Shown here: piece after piece, positions 50,262-59,676 of the stretch
Layout: each line of letters opens with the position of its first letter
Position numbering within the stretch: the first letter of the stretch is position 1
NCBI RefSeq assembly: GCF_009617895.1
Contig: NZ_BLAW01000001.1
Span: 1,913,001-1,977,000, forward strand
DNA length: 64,000 bases
Direction: 5' to 3'
DNA from: Prolixibacter sp. SD074
GTDB taxonomy: Bacteria; Bacteroidota; Bacteroidia; Bacteroidales; Prolixibacteraceae
Made by a program: the position numbers and the translations under genes
Notes under the pieces: model-generated
What the model saw: only the letters and a program-made list of their open reading frames with translations
What the model was told of the DNA's origin: nothing
Database searches by the model: none

Positions 50262-50609
50262 ATGAAAGATCATGACGATCACTTAGCGGTCATTTGGGCA
50301 AGTGGCGATCCCGACGTTGCCGAAAAAATTTGCCTCATGTATACGCACAATGCGCATCTTCAACATTGGTTCCAGGAAGTGCGGTTAATTGTTTGGGGGC
50401 CATCGGCAAAGCTGTTAACCGAAAACGAAAGTTTACAAAACCAGATACGCGACATGCTGAATAACGGACTGACCGTTGAAGCGTGCGTGACCTGTGCCAG
50501 CATGTATGGCATAACCGATCAGCTCCGTCAACTCGGAATCGATGTCCGTCCGATGGGCGTACCGTTAACCAGCTACCTGAAAGATGGCTGGAAGGTGCTT
50601 ACTTTCTGA
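50262..50609 (+). CDS. DsrE-family small protein
   Basis: The 115-residue protein has the DsrE fold pattern: LAVIWASGDPDVAEKICLMY, VRLIVWGPSAKLL, and VEACVTCASMYGITDQLRQLG, in which the Cys pair CVTC lies where sulfur-carrying DsrE proteins have their cysteine. A role in sulfur relay is plausible but not shown. It is a single gene, convergent with the creatininase-family gene. Confidence 0.82.
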   Translation: MKDHDDHLAVIWASGDPDVAEKICLMYTHNAHLQHWFQEVRLIVWGPSAKLLTENESLQNQIRDMLNNGLTVEACVTCASMYGITDQLRQLGIDVRPMGVPLTSYLKDGWKVLTF

Positions 50610-50627: not shown

Positions 50628-51404
50628 TCATAACAGCTCCGGGTTGATATACATGTCTTCCGGTGGCGTCGTTGCCATATCATAAAAGAAAGTTCCGACC
50701 TTTTCGGTGACATAGCGGAAAAACTGTTCTCCTTTTTCCCTTGTAGCCTGATTAGGGTTTCCTATTCCCGTGTCGATAGTAACCTGTGTCCATTTTCGTT
50801 CGGACCATGCCCAACCTTCCCGCAAAGCCGGAATACGGGGAACTTTTGCTTTACCTTCACCGGCTTCATCCAACGAGCGAACCAAATCGGGTCGAAACAG
50901 TTGCATCAGGCTGGTTTCCATCTCGCCAGCATGTTCGCCTGTAACCTCGAAAAATTCGTTAATTCCCGGCATTTTAAACCAATGGCATTGCGACAGTAAC
51001 ATTTCCGGAAAACGAAGGTTCAGTTCCCTTATGTGCATTTTGAAATCATTACCGCCATGCGAATTAAGAATCACCAGCTTTTTTATTCCCTGCCGGTTTA
51101 ACACTGTAATCAAATCATCGAGAATAGCCAGCTGCGTGGACGGATTAAGGTTCATATCCAGTTTTACATCCGGCTGACCGGTATTCACACCATAAGCTAT
51201 CACCGGAAGAACAATTACTTTGGCTCCCTTTTCCCAGGCCTGTTTAGCCGATTCCCAGGCAAAGTACTCCGACTCGAACACATCGGTGGCATAGGGCAAA
51301 TGAAGATTATGGGCTTCGGTGGCCCCCCAGGGAAGAATCGCCAGTTCATAATCAATTTCACGAACAGTTTTCCAATTGGTTTCAGCAAGAATATACGGTC
51401 TCAT
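50628..51404 (-). CDS. Creatininase-family amidohydrolase
   Basis: The 258-residue protein has the family metal motifs: GATEAHNLHLPYATD near residues 27-41 (Glu30, His32, Asp41), NSHGGND, and GEHAGEMETS with the catalytic/metal Glu. The family includes creatininase and the riboflavin-type FAPy deformylase; substrate here is unknown. It is divergent from the AmmeMemoRadiSam operon, with a 210-bp gap. Confidence 0.9.
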   Translation of the reverse strand: MRPYILAETNWKTVREIDYELAILPWGATEAHNLHLPYATDVFESEYFAWESAKQAWEKGAKVIVLPVIAYGVNTGQPDVKLDMNLNPSTQLAILDDLITVLNRQGIKKLVILNSHGGNDFKMHIRELNLRFPEMLLSQCHWFKMPGINEFFEVTGEHAGEMETSLMQLFRPDLVRSLDEAGEGKAKVPRIPALREGWAWSERKWTQVTIDTGIGNPNQATREKGEQFFRYVTEKVGTFFYDMATTPPEDMYINPELL

Positions 51405-51616: not shown

Positions 51617-53086
51617 ATGAGAACAAACATTTCATTTCGGGTCATCGTGGTTTTGCTGCTGCTGTTCTCCGAAAACTTGCAGGCACAGGACAGGCAACCA
51701 GCCGTGGCCGGTTCTTTTTATCCGGGAAATGCAGAGGCGTTGACAAAAGAGCTCCGCCAACTTTTTCAAAATACAAGCACCGAAAAGAATTCATCCATCG
51801 CGGCGCTAATTGTTCCGCACGCCGGTTATATCTTTTCAGGAAAAGTGGCCGCCACTGGATATGCTCAAATTCCTAAAGGCAAAGCTTACAAAAATGTATT
51901 CATTATCGGGGTATCTCATCGCATACGTTTCAATGGCGTTTCCATTTATCCTCATGGAAATTATCTTACGCCATTGGGAAAAATTCCGGTGAACGATGTA
52001 CTCGCCGAAAAACTGATAAATGAAAATCGGATCATTCATTTTGTTCCCGGAGCGCACCGGAGCGAACACTCAATAGAAGTACAGTTGCCCTTTCTGCAAT
52101 ATCATCTGAAAAAAGGATTTTGCATAGTCCCCATCCTAACCGGTGATTCCAATCCAGCCACTACACGAAAACTGGCGGAGGCACTTTTGCCCTATTTTAC
52201 CAGCGACAACCTGTTCATCATTAGCACCGATTTTTCGCATTATCCTCCTAATGCAAGCGCACAAAAGGTGGACAAGGAAACGGCTGATGCCATTCTTTCC
52301 GGGATACCGGAACAACTACAAAAGGTATGTCAAAAGCTATCTCCGAATCCACCGGAAAATGTATTGACCCGCCTGTGCGGCGAAAGTGGCGTACTCACAC
52401 TGATGGAGGTGATTTCGGGGAAAACGGGGTATTATTACCATCAAATTATCTATCAAAATTCCAGCGCCAGTCCGTCCGGCGATCCCAATCGGATAGTCGG
52501 TTACTGCGCTATTTCCGTAACTAGAGACAAAGCCCAGGCATTTCATTTGACTGAAAGTGATAAAAGTTATTTACTAAAACTGGCCAGAAATACCATTGAA
52601 ACATATTTAAAAACCGGTATGCTCCCGAAAATTGCCCCGAGCCATCCTAAAAACCTGCAGCAACATTGCGGCGCCTTTGTAACATTGTCAGAAGACGGCT
52701 CACTTCGTGGTTGCATCGGGCAATTCAATCCCTCTATTCCGTTAGTGGAAGTCGTCAGGAATATGGCCATTGCCGCTTCAACAAAAGACACGCGTTTTCC
52801 ACCTGTCCAGCTTTCCGAAATGAATTCCATTAAGATTGAGATTTCGGTACTGACCCCTTTGCACAAAATTAGCAACGCAGAGGAGTTCCATCCCGGGAAG
52901 CAGGGAATCTACATCAAAAAAGGTAATCGTAGCGGTACGTATTTGCCACAGGTAGCCGAACAAACCGGCTGGGACCGCGAAAACATGCTCGGCCATTGCT
53001 CCCGGGACAAAGCCGGCATTGGATGGAACGGTTGGAAAAACGCCGAACTCTACACGTACGAAGCCATTGTTTTTCATGAAAAATAA
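51617..53086 (+). CDS. Exported MEMO1-AMMECR1 fusion (AmmeMemoRadiSam proteins B and A)
   Basis: The 489-residue protein begins with a Sec signal (VIVVLLLLFSENLQAQ). Residues about 25-300 are the MEMO domain (AVAGSFYPGNAEAL, VPHAGYIFSGKVAATGYA, HSIEVQLPFLQYHL, TDFSHYPPN). Residues about 310-485 are AMMECR1 (LRGCIGQFNPSIPLVEVV ... AASTKDTRFPPVQLSE). These are the B and A components of the AmmeMemoRadiSam system, normally separate genes. The chemistry of the system is not established. It is two bases upstream of the membrane protein gene. Confidence 0.93.
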   Translation: MRTNISFRVIVVLLLLFSENLQAQDRQPAVAGSFYPGNAEALTKELRQLFQNTSTEKNSSIAALIVPHAGYIFSGKVAATGYAQIPKGKAYKNVFIIGVSHRIRFNGVSIYPHGNYLTPLGKIPVNDVLAEKLINENRIIHFVPGAHRSEHSIEVQLPFLQYHLKKGFCIVPILTGDSNPATTRKLAEALLPYFTSDNLFIISTDFSHYPPNASAQKVDKETADAILSGIPEQLQKVCQKLSPNPPENVLTRLCGESGVLTLMEVISGKTGYYYHQIIYQNSSASPSGDPNRIVGYCAISVTRDKAQAFHLTESDKSYLLKLARNTIETYLKTGMLPKIAPSHPKNLQQHCGAFVTLSEDGSLRGCIGQFNPSIPLVEVVRNMAIAASTKDTRFPPVQLSEMNSIKIEISVLTPLHKISNAEEFHPGKQGIYIKKGNRSGTYLPQVAEQTGWDRENMLGHCSRDKAGIGWNGWKNAELYTYEAIVFHEK

Positions 53087-53088
53087 CC

Positions 53089-55542
53089 ATGAATACGCCC
53101 TACAGCATCATATCCATTCTATCAGGTACCTTGCTGGCTTATCTCATTACCTGGCTGCTGAGCCGTCAGCGATGGATTTCCCGCAATGTCCACCGGCAAA
53201 TCTGGAACACGCTGTTGCTAATTACTTTTCTCTTCACTTGCGTCCTGGGACTTTTGCTGGCATTGAAAGCCAATTACAACCTGAAGTTTGCCTTTCTGGA
53301 CGAAGCGTTACCAGTGCATGTCGATTTTGGTATTGCCATGAGTATAATTGGTTTACTGCATATTTTCTGGCACGTGAATTATTTTAAACGCTTGTTTGGA
53401 AAGGAGACGGAACAAAAATCACGGGAAATATCAGGAAAGGAACAAGTTGATATCCCAAAAACTCCTCTGCTTTTTCCATTTCTTTTGGGATTCATCACCC
53501 TTACGGGACAACTGGTCTTGTTCCGTGACTATCTGGCCATCTTTGGAGGCAATGCGTTGTATGTCGGAATACTACTTTCCCTTTGGCTTATACTCACCGG
53601 ACTTGGCACACAACTGGCCCGAAACAGGACTTTTTCGGTTAATGCGATAGTTCGACTGCTTTTGGTCCTGACGTTACTTCCATCCATCAGCATTCTCATC
53701 ATCCGGGTAACACACGGCTGGCTTTTCGAAACGGGGACCGAAACCGGTCCATTGAGTTTTGCTTTTTTTGCCCTGTTTACGTTGGCGCCACTTTGTCTCA
53801 CCGGTGGATTGTTGTTTCCGGTATTAAGTCAGCACCGCCCGGGAGAAAACACCGGTCTGATTTATTCATGGGAGTCAGCAGGGAGTTTGGTTGCCGGTAT
53901 GATGTTCAGTTTTGTATGGGTATTTCTCTTCTCACCCATTCAGACATTAGCTATCGCCGGTTTTATTAGCCTGGCATTGTTGTTCATTCTTCGGAAGAAA
54001 GTGAAAGAAATTCCCCTCTATTCGACATCTGTCATCGCAATCCTTCTGGCTTTCCTTTTCGTCTTTCCCCCCGAAAAAATGACTCGGGCTTCACTTTTCC
54101 CGGGACAGCAAATTCAAAGCATCATACAAAGCGTTTCCGGTGAATTGGTGATTACCCGGGCCGCGAACCAATCCAATGTATTCGAGAACAGCCGGTTGCT
54201 CTATTCACAGGGAAGCCCTTCGGCGGCTGAAGAACCTGTTCACTATACGTTGTCTCAACGTGATAGGGTCAATCAAATAGCCGTAGTTTCCGGGGCATTA
54301 ACCGGAGTTCTATCGGAATGCCTGAAATACCGCCCAAACCGTATAGATTACTTCGAAGTGAACGGGAAGTTACTGGAGCTGGAAAAACAAAGTCAGACGA
54401 TCCCAAATGATTCGACCATTCACATCCACCGAACCGATTTTCAACGCTGGATTTCCAAATATCCACTCCAATATGACGGTATAATTTTAAACATTCCACC
54501 TCCGGAGACACCATCGGCCAGCCGGTACTATACCAAAGAATTCTTCCACAATATCCGAAAAAATATCTCCGATAGCGGAGTGGTCGCCATTCCTTTGCTA
54601 TCCGCCGCCAATTATCTCGATCAAACCACTGTTCATCTATACCAAACGGTCATTGCTACGATTCAGCCTTATTTCAGAAATTGGCTTATCCTTCCGGGAA
54701 ACCGTGATATTTTACTGGTTTCCAATGGACAATTACACACCAACATTTTGACCCGGATAGAAGATTTAGGTATCATAACCAACTACATCGCTTATTTTAT
54801 CGATGAACCAGACCTCGTTACGCGAAGTCATGAGTATGTTGAAATAATGACGAACAAAGCAAAAATGGTCTCGGTCAATCATCCCATTGCAGTAAGCTAT
54901 TTTACTGGTTTCTGGCTAAAAAAACATGGCCTTTCGTATATTCTTTTCGGAACAATACTCGTCGTCATTTTCATTTTCCTGATAAGTTTTACCCGGGGAA
55001 TTTCCAGAAGCATGTTTGCAGCCGGTTTTACCGCTTCCATCATGGAAATTATTCCGCTGGTACTGATTCAAGCCACATTCGGGTATTCCTATTACCTGAT
55101 TGGCGTTATTTTTACACTCTTCATGGCCGGGCTCACTCTGGGGGCCCGCTGGACGATTACGACAGGAACAAAAGGCGATCATCGAATTTCGCGGCATCAT
55201 ATCTGGTTTATGCTGTTGCTGATATCCCAATGGGCGGTCGCCCAATGGCTCTCGCCCGGCAGAACGGTCATCTATATCGCCTCGGAACTGCTCCTGATTA
55301 CTATGGCCGGATGGCTGACCGGACGTATGTTCCAATTAACTTCCAGCCAGTATCGCCCAAAAACAGAAGCGCCATCCATGGTTTACAAAGCCGATTTATA
55401 TGGGTCGGCCGGAGGCGCCATGCTGGTGTCGGTTTTTTTGGTCCCATTACTTGGAATTAACCTTACGCTCTTAGTACTTTTAGTCATGCATCTCTTCCTG
55501 ACCTTTGTGTCGAAACGAAGAACCTCTTCAGTCAGAATATGA
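53089..55542 (+). CDS. Polytopic membrane protein with spermidine-synthase-like core
   Basis: The 817-residue protein has about three N-terminal membrane helices, a further set of seven or so (residues 125-325), a soluble core (about 340-570) resembling the aminopropyltransferase/SAM-binding fold (VHYTLSQRDRVNQIAVVSGA, then YFEVNGKLLELEKQSQ in the place of the nucleoside-binding acid), and six or more C-terminal helices. The glycine-rich motif is altered (VVSGALTG for GGGDG), so enzymatic polyamine synthesis is uncertain. It overlaps the radical SAM gene by four bases, linking it tightly to that system. Confidence 0.78.
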   Translation: MNTPYSIISILSGTLLAYLITWLLSRQRWISRNVHRQIWNTLLLITFLFTCVLGLLLALKANYNLKFAFLDEALPVHVDFGIAMSIIGLLHIFWHVNYFKRLFGKETEQKSREISGKEQVDIPKTPLLFPFLLGFITLTGQLVLFRDYLAIFGGNALYVGILLSLWLILTGLGTQLARNRTFSVNAIVRLLLVLTLLPSISILIIRVTHGWLFETGTETGPLSFAFFALFTLAPLCLTGGLLFPVLSQHRPGENTGLIYSWESAGSLVAGMMFSFVWVFLFSPIQTLAIAGFISLALLFILRKKVKEIPLYSTSVIAILLAFLFVFPPEKMTRASLFPGQQIQSIIQSVSGELVITRAANQSNVFENSRLLYSQGSPSAAEEPVHYTLSQRDRVNQIAVVSGALTGVLSECLKYRPNRIDYFEVNGKLLELEKQSQTIPNDSTIHIHRTDFQRWISKYPLQYDGIILNIPPPETPSASRYYTKEFFHNIRKNISDSGVVAIPLLSAANYLDQTTVHLYQTVIATIQPYFRNWLILPGNRDILLVSNGQLHTNILTRIEDLGIITNYIAYFIDEPDLVTRSHEYVEIMTNKAKMVSVNHPIAVSYFTGFWLKKHGLSYILFGTILVVIFIFLISFTRGISRSMFAAGFTASIMEIIPLVLIQATFGYSYYLIGVIFTLFMAGLTLGARWTITTGTKGDHRISRHHIWFMLLLISQWAVAQWLSPGRTVIYIASELLLITMAGWLTGRMFQLTSSQYRPKTEAPSMVYKADLYGSAGGAMLVSVFLVPLLGINLTLLVLLVMHLFLTFVSKRRTSSVRI

Positions 55543-56687
55543 AAACACAAACGCCTAAAACATTCACAATGAAAGCACCTTCGATTTCCAGACGAACATG
55601 CATTAAAACCGGGCTGATGGGAACGCTGGGAATGGCTTTTATTCCGGCATTAGCAGCAAATGACCCCGTTCTGAAAAAATATCAGCGCGAAGCACGTTAT
55701 TACAAAATCACCGGCCGCGGGGTGAAGTGCACGCTGTGTCCCAATGAATGCAACATCAGCCTCAACGATACCGGCGACTGCCGGACCCGAATCAACCGCG
55801 ATAATAAGCTTTATACAACGGCTTATGGGAACCCATGCGCCATTCACATCGACCCGGTCGAGAAGAAACCATTGTATCATTTCCTACCTGGAAGTCGTTC
55901 CTTTTCCATCGCCACGGCAGGATGCAACCTGGTTTGCCTGAACTGTCAGAACTGGCAAATTTCGCAGGCAACCCCAGCAGAAACCCGGAATCAGGAACTG
56001 TTTCCGGGACAAGTGGTTGCTTCGTCCATTGGAAATAACTGTCAATCGATTGCTTACACATACGCCGAGCCGCTTGTTTTCTATGAATACATGTATGACT
56101 CATCGGAAAAAGCACACCAGGAAGGAATCAAAAATATTCTCATTTCCAATGGCTACGTTAATGAAGAGCCATTGCGAAAACTCACCAAAGTCATCGATGC
56201 GGCCAATATCGATTTAAAATCTTTCAGCGATGATATCTACATCCGGTTGAACACCGGTTCGCTCAAGCCAGTTCTTCGTACCCTGAAAATATTGAAAGAG
56301 GAAGGTGTCTGGCTCGAAATTACCAACCTGGTCATCCCCGGCTGGACCGATGATATGGATATGATTAAAGAAATGTGTGCCTGGCTGGTGAAAAACGGCT
56401 TTGACGAAACTCCTTTACATTTCAGCCGGTTCTTCCCGCAATATAAACTGCAGCAGCTGCCGGCCACTCCAGCCGAAACCCTCACCAAAGCACGTAACAT
56501 TGCTATGCAGGAAGGAATAAAATTCGTGTACATTGGCAACCTGCCGGGAAACGATGCATCGAACACATTATGTCCCAAATGCCACCAGGTAGTCATTGAG
56601 CGAAAGGGATTTCGCATTCTGAAAAACAATCTGACAAAAGGCAAATGCCAATTCTGTCACACACCTGTTCCGGGTGTTTGGGCGTAG
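55539..56687 (+). CDS. AmmeMemoRadiSam radical SAM enzyme with Tat-like signal
   Basis: The 382-residue protein carries the radical SAM cluster motif CNLVCLNC within IATAGCNLVCLNCQNWQIS, preceded by a family cysteine cluster KCTLCPNECNISL, and ends with NTLCPKCHQVVIERKGFR and a CxxC pair (CQFCHT). The N-terminus, SISRRTCIKTGLMGTLGMAFI, has a twin-arginine motif and hydrophobic stretch, suggesting export of the folded iron-sulfur protein, which is unusual for a radical SAM enzyme. An internal Met (codon 11, 55569) would still keep the signal. Confidence 0.9.
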   Translation: MKTQTPKTFTMKAPSISRRTCIKTGLMGTLGMAFIPALAANDPVLKKYQREARYYKITGRGVKCTLCPNECNISLNDTGDCRTRINRDNKLYTTAYGNPCAIHIDPVEKKPLYHFLPGSRSFSIATAGCNLVCLNCQNWQISQATPAETRNQELFPGQVVASSIGNNCQSIAYTYAEPLVFYEYMYDSSEKAHQEGIKNILISNGYVNEEPLRKLTKVIDAANIDLKSFSDDIYIRLNTGSLKPVLRTLKILKEEGVWLEITNLVIPGWTDDMDMIKEMCAWLVKNGFDETPLHFSRFFPQYKLQQLPATPAETLTKARNIAMQEGIKFVYIGNLPGNDASNTLCPKCHQVVIERKGFRILKNNLTKGKCQFCHTPVPGVWA

Positions 56688-56871: not shown

Positions 56872-57657
56872 ATGAAAATAAACATTTTTCAGGTCGATGC
56901 GTTTACCTCCGGGCTATTCGAAGGAAATCCCGCAGCCGTTTGCCCACTGGACGAATGGCCTAAAGACGAGATCCTTCAAAACATTGCCATGGAGAATAAT
57001 TTATCGGAAACTGCCTTCTTTGTCCGAAACCTTCATTACTATGAACTCCGGTGGTTTACGCCCAAAGTGGAAGTAGCTCTGTGTGGACATGCTACGCTGG
57101 CAACAGCCCATGTCCTTTTTCACCACATGGGGAGCACTAAGAACCCGCTCATCTTCAACACCCGCAAAAGTGGTGAGTTACAGGTAAAAAAAGATAAAGG
57201 CTCATTAACGCTGAATTTTCCGGCTGATAAGTTGGAACCGGCACTTCCTCCCAAAGGAATGATTGAAGCTTTGGGCAAGAAACCGGAAGAAATATGGAAA
57301 GGGAAGACTGATTACCTGCTGTATTATCCCGCCCAGGAAGACATTGAAGAAATGGCCCCGGACTTTTTCCGCCTGGCTAACGTCGAAGCACGAGGCATTA
57401 TTGTTACAGCTCCGGGCTATGAAAACGATTTTGTTTCCCGGTTCTTTGCCCCCGCCGTAGGAGTAAATGAAGATCCGGTGACAGGTTCGGCCCACACTTC
57501 GTTAACACCCTTCTGGGCACACCGGATGAACCAATTGGAATTCGATGCCACTCAACTGAGTGAACGTGGTGGAAAGCTAAGATGTCATCTTTCAGGTGAT
57601 CGTGTTTTTATTTCCGGTCAGGCCAAAACATTCCTCGAAGGGACCATCACATTATAA
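56872..57657 (+). CDS. PhzF-family isomerase
   Basis: The 261-residue protein has the PhzF pattern: QVDAFTSGLFEGNPAAVCPL at the N-terminus, the catalytic Glu in NLSETAFFV (Glu about 46), FTPKVEVALCGHATLATAHV, and the C-terminal NEDPVTGSAHTSLTPFWA. The family isomerises or epimerises small carboxylic compounds; phenazine genes are absent, so the substrate is unknown. Confidence 0.92.
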   Translation: MKINIFQVDAFTSGLFEGNPAAVCPLDEWPKDEILQNIAMENNLSETAFFVRNLHYYELRWFTPKVEVALCGHATLATAHVLFHHMGSTKNPLIFNTRKSGELQVKKDKGSLTLNFPADKLEPALPPKGMIEALGKKPEEIWKGKTDYLLYYPAQEDIEEMAPDFFRLANVEARGIIVTAPGYENDFVSRFFAPAVGVNEDPVTGSAHTSLTPFWAHRMNQLEFDATQLSERGGKLRCHLSGDRVFISGQAKTFLEGTITL

Positions 57658-57699: not shown

Positions 57700-59676
57700 A
57701 TGAAGATTTTTTCAAGCAATCTTACCAGGATAACACTGGTAATATTGATCGTTTTGTCTTTCTCTTTACAGGGAAAAGCAGAGATAACGATGCCCCGCAT
57801 TTTCAACTGCGGGATGGTGCTCCAGCAGGGCATGGAAGTTCCCGTTTGGGGATGGGCATCGCCAAACGAAAAAGTGAGTGTTTCTATTGATGGAAATACG
57901 GTAAAAACCAAGGCCGGAGATGACGGTAAATGGAAAATAAAACTGCCCGAGATGAATACCGGAGGGCCCTACTCGATGACCATCAAAGGCAAAAACACCA
58001 TGGTTTTCGAAAACATCATGGTGGGAGAAGTCTGGGTTTGTTCCGGGCAATCCAATATGGAATTTCCGGTCGACAGCATCGACCAAAGTTATCGCGGTGT
58101 GAATAACTATCAGCAGGAAATAGCCAATGCTGACAACTATCCGGAAATCCGACTTTTCACTGTTCCGAGGAAGATTGCTCAAACTCCGCAAAAGGATCTG
58201 GATAACGGGGAGTGGCTCGAGTGCTCGTCAGCAACGGTAGGAGATTTCTCAGCAGTCGGATATTTTTTCGCCCGCGGTTTGTACAAAAAACTGGGCGTTC
58301 CTGTTGGTATCATCTGCGCAGCGTGGGGAGGAACAGTTGCTGAATCATGGACCAGCCCGGGAACCATGGCCAATGACTCCGACTTCGGACCGATGGTTGC
58401 CGAGTTGCGGAAACTTGACCTGAAAAAATACAAGGAAGTTAAGGAAGCCAGGATAAAAGCTGAATTGGGTGAACTACCACTCGTTGACAAAGGATTGATT
58501 GATGGAAAAGCAGTATGGGCGGCCACCAATTACGATGATTCAGGTTGGAAACCGATGCAATTGCCGGGCTTATGGGAAAGCTTGGGCTACAACAACATTG
58601 ATGGTATTGCATGGTTCCGGAAAACGATCGAAATTTCGCCAGGGGATGCGGGTAAACCAGCCAAACTGAACCTCCAGAAAATTGATGACTCTGATCAAAC
58701 CTGGGTCAACGGTATCCCGGTAGGAAAAACCATGAACGCGTACAATAAGAATCGCCATTACGAAATTTCTGAAGGAGTATTAAAAAGCGGCAAAAATGTG
58801 ATTACCGTTCGGGTAGAAGACACCGGAGGTGGTGGTGGAATACATGGCAGCGCTAATCTTATGAATCTGTCAATTGATGGAACGAACATCCCGCTGGCAG
58901 GCAACTGGAAATTCAGGTTTGGCAAAATTGATACCAACGCATTATCGCTGGGGCCTAATGACTATCCGACCTTGTTGTATAATGGAATGGTCAATCCAAT
59001 TGTACCTTACGGAATTAAAGGAGTAATCTGGTACCAGGGCGAATCGAATGCTGACCGTCCGACGCAATATCAACGGATTTTCCCGAATTTGATCAAAGAC
59101 TGGCGGATGCATTGGAATGAAGGAGATTTTCCATTCCTTTTCGTTCAACTGGCTAATTATATGGCCCCGCAGAATCAACCCGGCAACAGTAACTGGGCCC
59201 GTTTACGCGAAACTCAAACCAAAACGTTGGAATTACCGAATACAGGAATGGCTGTAGCCATCGACGTAGGAGAAGGAGGAAATATTCATCCGAAGGATAA
59301 ACAATCTGTTGGATACAGGCTTTCATTACCTGCGCTGAAAATTGCCTACAACGAGGATTTGGTATTTTCCGGGCCGATGTTTGACCACATGGAGATTGAC
59401 CAATCAAGAATCTTCCTCACATTCAACCATGTTGGTGAGGGGCTCAAAGTTCATGATAAATATGGCTATCTAAAAGGCTTTGCCGTAGCCGGGGCCGATA
59501 AGAAGTTTCACTGGGCGAAAGCTGTTTTAGTCAACCCCGGCACCGTTGTGGCCTTCAGCTCCGATGTGAAAAATCCGGTGGCTGTTCGCTATGGATGGGC
59601 AGACAATCCGGAGGATGCAAACCTGTATAACAGTGCAGGGCTACCGGCATCTCCCTTTCGAACGGATAACTGGTAA
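57700..59676 (+). CDS. Sialate O-acetylesterase-like SGNH esterase
   Basis: The 658-residue exported protein has GQSNMEFPVD (catalytic Ser block), GVIWYQGESNADRPTQY (block III) and the Asp-His pair near GEGGNIHPKDKQ. An inserted jelly-roll domain (residues about 255-405) splits the catalytic domain, typical of Bacteroidota sialate O-acetylesterases. It removes acetyl groups from sialic acid or related sugars. The signal peptide is at residues 1-26. Confidence 0.92.
   Translation: MKIFSSNLTRITLVILIVLSFSLQGKAEITMPRIFNCGMVLQQGMEVPVWGWASPNEKVSVSIDGNTVKTKAGDDGKWKIKLPEMNTGGPYSMTIKGKNTMVFENIMVGEVWVCSGQSNMEFPVDSIDQSYRGVNNYQQEIANADNYPEIRLFTVPRKIAQTPQKDLDNGEWLECSSATVGDFSAVGYFFARGLYKKLGVPVGIICAAWGGTVAESWTSPGTMANDSDFGPMVAELRKLDLKKYKEVKEARIKAELGELPLVDKGLIDGKAVWAATNYDDSGWKPMQLPGLWESLGYNNIDGIAWFRKTIEISPGDAGKPAKLNLQKIDDSDQTWVNGIPVGKTMNAYNKNRHYEISEGVLKSGKNVITVRVEDTGGGGGIHGSANLMNLSIDGTNIPLAGNWKFRFGKIDTNALSLGPNDYPTLLYNGMVNPIVPYGIKGVIWYQGESNADRPTQYQRIFPNLIKDWRMHWNEGDFPFLFVQLANYMAPQNQPGNSNWARLRETQTKTLELPNTGMAVAIDVGEGGNIHPKDKQSVGYRLSLPALKIAYNEDLVFSGPMFDHMEIDQSRIFLTFNHVGEGLKVHDKYGYLKGFAVAGADKKFHWAKAVLVNPGTVVAFSSDVKNPVAVRYGWADNPEDANLYNSAGLPASPFRTDNW

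Follow-up and report, generated by a model that had tools for sequence, protein, structure and literature searches.

AmmeMemoRadiSam systems, defined by the families TIGR04335, TIGR04336 and TIGR04337, are known but poorly understood and uncharacterised, and human disease has been linked to the Memo as well as the AMMECR1 family. The cytoplasm, which provides SAM, low-potential electrons and Fe-S assembly, is for that reason taken as the site of radical SAM chemistry, and to our knowledge all other radical SAM enzymes are regarded as intracellular. On the side of membrane proteins, polyamine aminopropyltransferases with a membrane domain (PRK03612/NF002956; SpeE fold) carry helices before a spermidine-synthase-fold domain, while POT transporters have a helix pair between their two halves. 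NHMT is a fungal seven-transmembrane methyltransferase of the spermidine synthase (SpdS) type for secreted LPMOs, belonging to the secretory pathway (PMC10349129). Literature searches yielded neither an earlier example of a radical SAM enzyme active beyond the cytoplasm nor an exported AmmeMemoRadiSam variant with an exclusive transporter partner, a 2019 Memo/AMMECR1 context study (cited in PMC7159879) lying outside the search.

The locus analysed here lies in a 64,000-nucleotide stretch of the Prolixibacter sp. genome (3.96 Mb), the whole of which is hereafter called the window. All three families that define AmmeMemoRadiSam are encoded there in one forward-strand operon, each above its curated cut-off. 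The first gene (51617-53086, 489 residues) fuses AmmeMemoRadiSam B and A in one chain, with a Memo domain (PF01875, residues 27-298, 190 bits; TIGR04336, 239 bits for a cut-off of 26) followed by an AMMECR1 domain (PF01871, residues 320-486, 176 bits; TIGR04335, 168 bits for a cut-off of 99). The second (53089-55542, 817 residues) encodes a membrane protein with an MFS-type transporter fold and an inserted spermidine-synthase-fold domain, and the third (55539-56687, 382 residues) a radical SAM enzyme (TIGR04337, 365 bits for a cut-off of 220). On re-checking, the spacing given in a preliminary description of this DNA proved exact: a 2-bp gap separates the first two genes (53086/53089) and the last two share a 4-bp overlap (55539-55542). 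Compared with AmmeMemoRadiSam systems, the locus differs in the export signals on both soluble chains, in the fusion of Memo to AMMECR1, and in its constant MFS-SpdS membrane partner. On balance, we lean towards reading this operon as an extracytoplasmic variant of AmmeMemoRadiSam, with SAM supplied by the transporter.

The radical SAM protein is 92-93% identical to its counterparts in P. denitrificans and P. bellariivorans, the nearest records. A scan for promoters and terminators gave no signal exceeding shuffled controls. Four neighbouring genes were rejected as parts of the system, being conserved in Prolixibacter genomes only: those encoding a DsrE-like protein (50262-50609), a creatininase (50628-51404) and PhzF (56872-57657), and the gene at 57700. 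Elsewhere, the genome encodes TatC, a separate signal-less Memo-AMMECR1 protein (G000:C1:1573694-1574512; L002, L160) and a separate signal-less radical SAM enzyme (G000:C1:3919742-3920722; L004, L158). The latter two genes, which lie far apart, presumably form a dispersed cytoplasmic set, and both forms of the system would thus coexist in one cell.

The Memo-AMMECR1 chain begins with a Sec-type signal peptide (residues 1-23, 51617-51685), as the preliminary description had proposed. Its n-region (MRTNISFR) and h-region (VIVVLLLLF, mean Kyte-Doolittle 3.9) are clear, and the segment ends in a cleavage-like sequence (LQA followed by QD). Relatives in the same module carry Sec or lipobox-like signals, and Sec/lipoprotein-type signals are found in most members of the exported clade. 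This protein would very probably be exported by the Sec pathway, often as a predicted lipoprotein in relatives. The metal ligands of human MEMO1 are H49, H81 and C244 (PMC11081632). H68 and H101 of the Memo domain align with the first two of these residues, and C254 was paired with C244 by eye, beyond the alignment. All three residues, together with the LRGCIG motif of the AMMECR1 domain, are conserved in nearly all relatives, and the Memo metal site, like the radical SAM cluster site, is intact.

The signal region of the radical SAM enzyme (residues 1-40, 55539-55658) includes the sequence SISRRTCIKTGLMGTLGMAFIPALAAND. A twin-arginine motif, SRRTCIK (RR at residues 18-19, 55590-55595), is followed by the moderately hydrophobic segment TGLMGTLGMAFIPALAA, the stretch ending in ALAA. 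The twin-arginine-type signal noted earlier on this protein is thus present, but the window copy matches neither of the two Tat models used (TIGR01409 and PF10518), probably because a Cys occupies the usual Phe position. Its support comes instead from conservation. Among the N-termini of 45 relatives, 16 match TIGR01409 at E<=0.1 (best 1.3e-5) and 10 match PF10518 at the same threshold, and the second Arg (R19) is invariant across all 45, the remainder of the N-terminus being unalignable. The motif is mostly KR in Bacteroidota and RR in other lineages. The Tat-like motif also persists in P. bellariivorans, where the upstream start of the gene is lost to a stop codon. The predicted structure is in keeping with a signal region, as residues 50-382 form a confident core while residues 1-42 are detached and mostly of low confidence (residues 1-15 and 26-42, outside the core). 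Given these sequence features, the enzyme would very probably fold and receive its Fe-S clusters in the cytoplasm before export by Tat.

The exported form does not appear to be a relic, since all its conserved cysteines are retained. The radical SAM cluster motif CxxxCxxC (C129, C133 and C136; 55923-55946) is kept in about 98% of the 81 sequences compared, whether exported or cytoplasmic, and eight further cysteines are conserved, in an N-terminal four-Cys motif (C64, C67, C71 and C81; 55728-55781) and a C-terminal one (C345, C348, C370 and C373; 56571-56657). The closest solved fold, and the closest in sequence, is that of the PFL-activating enzyme (3cb8, E 3.7e-16), from which the radical SAM enzyme differs by its two extra four-Cys motifs. 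This proximity makes radical transfer to a partner protein possible. The enzyme itself was rejected as a glycyl radical enzyme activase, as it falls under the cut-offs of these activases (PFLA, 56 bits for a cut-off of 231.75) and no glycyl radical enzyme recurs in the neighbourhoods.

The membrane protein matches PF01564 above its cut-off (28 bits), and hydropathy and charge averaged over 47 homologues indicate about 17 helices. Its spermidine-synthase-fold domain (residues 328-617, 54070-54939) sits between two six-helix repeats that are homologous to each other (hhalign P 1.7e-17 over 180 columns), the first covering residues 128-310 (53470-54018) and the second residues 636-815 (54994-55533), with one extra helix between each repeat and the domain. 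In the 47 homologues, the positively charged loops lie on the face opposite the domain. Since the two repeats share one orientation, placing the charged loops in the cytoplasm leads to a predicted periplasmic position of the domain. In the AlphaFold2 model (pLDDT 86.5, pTM 0.83), residues from about 122 to 817 match MFS/POT transporters, namely PepTSt (5oxk, Z 20.8 over 358 residues) and 6zgr (Z 19.7). The chain thus combines two homologous six-helix repeats with an MFS fold, but as no Pfam or NCBIfam MFS model matches it at E<=0.001, we term it MFS-like in fold, outside any named MFS family. It shares its fold with the MFS/POT transporters that have two extra central helices, such as PepTSt, except that it carries a 290-residue domain between these two helices. 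From the alignments and the model, the membrane protein would probably be a 14-helix-type MFS transporter, extended here by three N-terminal helices, with its spermidine-synthase-fold domain, catalytically altered, on the periplasmic side.

The preliminary description had seen a spermidine-synthase-like core in this protein, which is true of its fold but not of its activity. The domain aligns with spermidine synthases at Z scores of about 22-24 (best 24.2, with 6bq2 over 261 residues). In spermidine synthases, the acid of the GxG(D/E)G motif binds the amino group of decarboxySAM. Aminopropyltransferases need this acidic residue (PMC10349129), which is lost in 44 of the 45 membrane-protein homologues and replaced by L404 in the window (alignment to 1uir). 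The protein was thus rejected as a spermidine synthase, also scoring only 84.7 bits for a cut-off of 472 (PRK03612/NF002956). It differs further from the PRK03612/NF002956 enzymes in having a second six-helix repeat after the domain and in the predicted periplasmic location of that domain. As the motif acid is lost but the adenosine-site residues E423 and D450 are kept in 44 of the 45 homologues, the domain is most likely a binder of a SAM-type ligand or a methyltransferase. Six of its residues (E381, E410, E423, D450, P472 and R479) vary little or not at all in the 45 homologues.

The methyltransferase option leads to another reading of the whole operon, in which the whole set of three proteins is extracytoplasmic. 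The membrane protein would be a methyltransferase like the seven-transmembrane SpdS-type enzyme NHMT, taking SAM from the cytoplasm to methylate an envelope or exported substrate, and the radical SAM enzyme and Memo-AMMECR1 would perform a separate step of the same pathway. NHMT also joins a helical membrane bundle to a SpdS-fold domain, its GxG(D/E)G acid is likewise replaced by a hydrophobic residue (PMC10349129), and the strong conservation of NRfYT and of E381/H385 in the membrane protein suggests an active site. The likeness to NHMT is one of architecture, and NHMT differs in being eukaryotic, in having a single 7TM bundle and in lacking a radical SAM partner. Two full six-helix repeats also exceed what a membrane anchor needs, and no gene for a substrate or methyl acceptor recurs across phyla beside the module in 81 neighbourhoods. 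We consider this second reading rather unlikely and prefer that of an AmmeMemoRadiSam variant outside the cytoplasm whose SAM comes through the transporter.

The preliminary description had held that the membrane protein supplies a substrate, SAM or electrons, and had allowed for the signals being absent in relatives, in which case its reading would fall. That the protein moves something is supported by its transporter fold and by a domain of SAM/decarboxySAM-binding fold predicted on the periplasmic side. A role as electron carrier was rejected, as the protein has no redox motif and the electron conduits of relatives are encoded by separate genes. Regarding the signals, both they and the gene linkage held across phyla. 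A first set contained the 80 loci nearest to the window radical SAM protein, chosen by similarity, 42 of which have a signal of the [R/K]R-x-F-[LIV]-[K/R] type on the radical SAM enzyme (41 detected by script, and L010 by eye). In this similarity-selected set, the membrane gene is found at 40 of the 42 loci with a Tat-like signal versus 14 of the 38 without (Fisher 1e-8, kinship being ignored). Export signals on the two soluble partners are conserved in Bacteroidota, Ignavibacteriota, Desulfobacterota, Planctomycetota, Verrucomicrobiota, Omnitrophota and archaeal MAGs. Gene clustering of the 81 neighbourhoods showed that Memo-AMMECR1, the membrane protein and the radical SAM enzyme are the only families recurring across phyla in a constant position.

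As the first set had been selected by similarity, we took a second sample of 296 genomes of the phylum, which was searched with TIGR04337 and, separately, with a profile of the membrane protein. A full-length membrane protein occurs in seven of these genomes (513-892 bits, the next best match scoring 175 bits). All seven loci (the window, L138, L139, L142, L145, L146 and L198) adjoin a TIGR04337 gene with a Tat-like signal, and none of the 33 signal-less TIGR04337 loci examined in this sample has the membrane gene (Fisher 5e-8, kinship again being ignored). The membrane protein is thus a discrete family, present in one copy in the Prolixibacter genome and found in the 296-genome sample only beside Tat-signal TIGR04337 enzymes. 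In the tree, Tat-bearing sequences are tightly grouped (7 changes versus 36 in shuffles), and the Tat-like signal and the membrane gene are absent together from a Bacteroidota subclade. A phylogenetic independence test of signal versus membrane gene had only three contrasts on well-supported branches, too few for significance. Many of the relatives are metagenome-assembled genomes, but mis-binning is unlikely to be the cause of the whole pattern because many genomes and phyla agree.

Export of both soluble chains is thus well supported by their sequences. Regarding the membrane protein, its fold and topology, the adenosine-site residues that it keeps and its exclusive linkage lead us to infer that it supplies SAM. 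It could, at about even chances, move SAM outwards or swap it for 5'-deoxyadenosine, methionine or SAH, with the periplasmic domain receiving or handing over the SAM-type ligand, and it may itself also act as a methyltransferase. The radical SAM enzyme would then generate the 5'-deoxyadenosyl radical outside the cytoplasm and act, together with the metal-binding Memo domain and the AMMECR1 domain, on an envelope or exported substrate encoded elsewhere; envelope modification may thus be the function of the module. Membrane donors would provide the electrons, a part that NosR-like FMN/4Fe-4S proteins may play in some relatives. We are evenly divided on the broader proposition of a widespread extracytoplasmic radical SAM system, consisting of a Tat-exported enzyme, an MFS-like SAM transporter and, in some lineages, a NosR-like electron conduit, which modifies an envelope or exported molecule. 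If true, radical SAM chemistry can be moved outside the cytoplasm together with its own candidate SAM transporter, which would give a starting point for studying how bacteria export SAM for use outside the cytoplasm, and the substrate of this Memo/AMMECR1 branch would be confined to envelope or exported molecules. In addition, AmmeMemoRadiSam function would become experimentally testable in culturable Prolixibacter.

Relatives provide further hints of extracytoplasmic chemistry. The first concerns electron conduits. In Nitrospirota (L054, L061, L064, L071 and L082, as well as L076 at a contig end), a NosR/NapH-like membrane protein with FMN_bind and Fer4_5 domains is encoded upstream of the radical SAM gene, and where both other genes are seen its gene lies between them, overlapping or following the membrane gene. 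Similarly, a DsbD_2+FMN_bind+Fer4_5 protein (L081:6000-7742) is encoded 90 bp upstream of a TIGR04337 enzyme with an N-terminal hydrophobic anchor. The second is a CxxCH (c-type heme-like) motif in the radical SAM enzymes of L138 and L139, carried by an insertion that separates the Tat signal from the catalytic core. Finally, two Bacteroidota MAGs (L065, 6504-8996, and L066) encode a single chain composed of a Sec signal, Memo, AMMECR1 and radical SAM domains (831 and 838 residues), with no membrane gene seen at either fetched locus. Conduits, insertion and fusions are each an independent hint, and none is proof.

The Nitrospirota also provide the main argument for a different arrangement. In a clade of 20 rows, the membrane gene is present at 12 loci and Memo-AMMECR1 is of the exported type, but the radical SAM enzyme lacks an N-terminal signal, so that the module can exist without an exported radical SAM enzyme. 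Such an arrangement of signals is precisely what is expected if the radical SAM step takes place in the cytoplasm, with a small molecule as substrate, and the product leaves through the MFS protein to be completed outside by Memo-AMMECR1 alone (with the transporter's domain), the Tat-like N-terminus of the enzyme serving for membrane attachment or having no function. Elsewhere, however, a Tat-like motif with an invariant Arg is kept in an otherwise unalignable N-terminus, the single-chain fusions place the radical SAM domain behind a Sec signal, and even as an anchor, a hydrophobic stretch preceded by Arg/Lys would put the enzyme outside. We regard this arrangement as improbable for the system as a whole. 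It is more improbable still that an ordinary cytoplasmic AmmeMemoRadiSam set with chance N-terminal hydrophobic stretches lies beside an unrelated polyamine enzyme, as the imperfect Tat motif of the window and its miss by the Tat HMMs might suggest, given the conservation of the signals across phyla, the signals at all seven membrane-gene loci, the 33 signal-less loci without this gene, and the failure of the membrane protein to show a spermidine synthase signature.

Two minor observations concern additional TIGR04337 copies. Two Bacteroidales MAGs (L022, 9174-10169, and L024, 9186-10181) have, immediately downstream of the Tat-type copy, a second radical SAM match that lacks the N-terminal part. 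The Prolixibacter genome itself carries a third TIGR04337 gene (G000:C1:4750-5728; L159), which is frameshifted.
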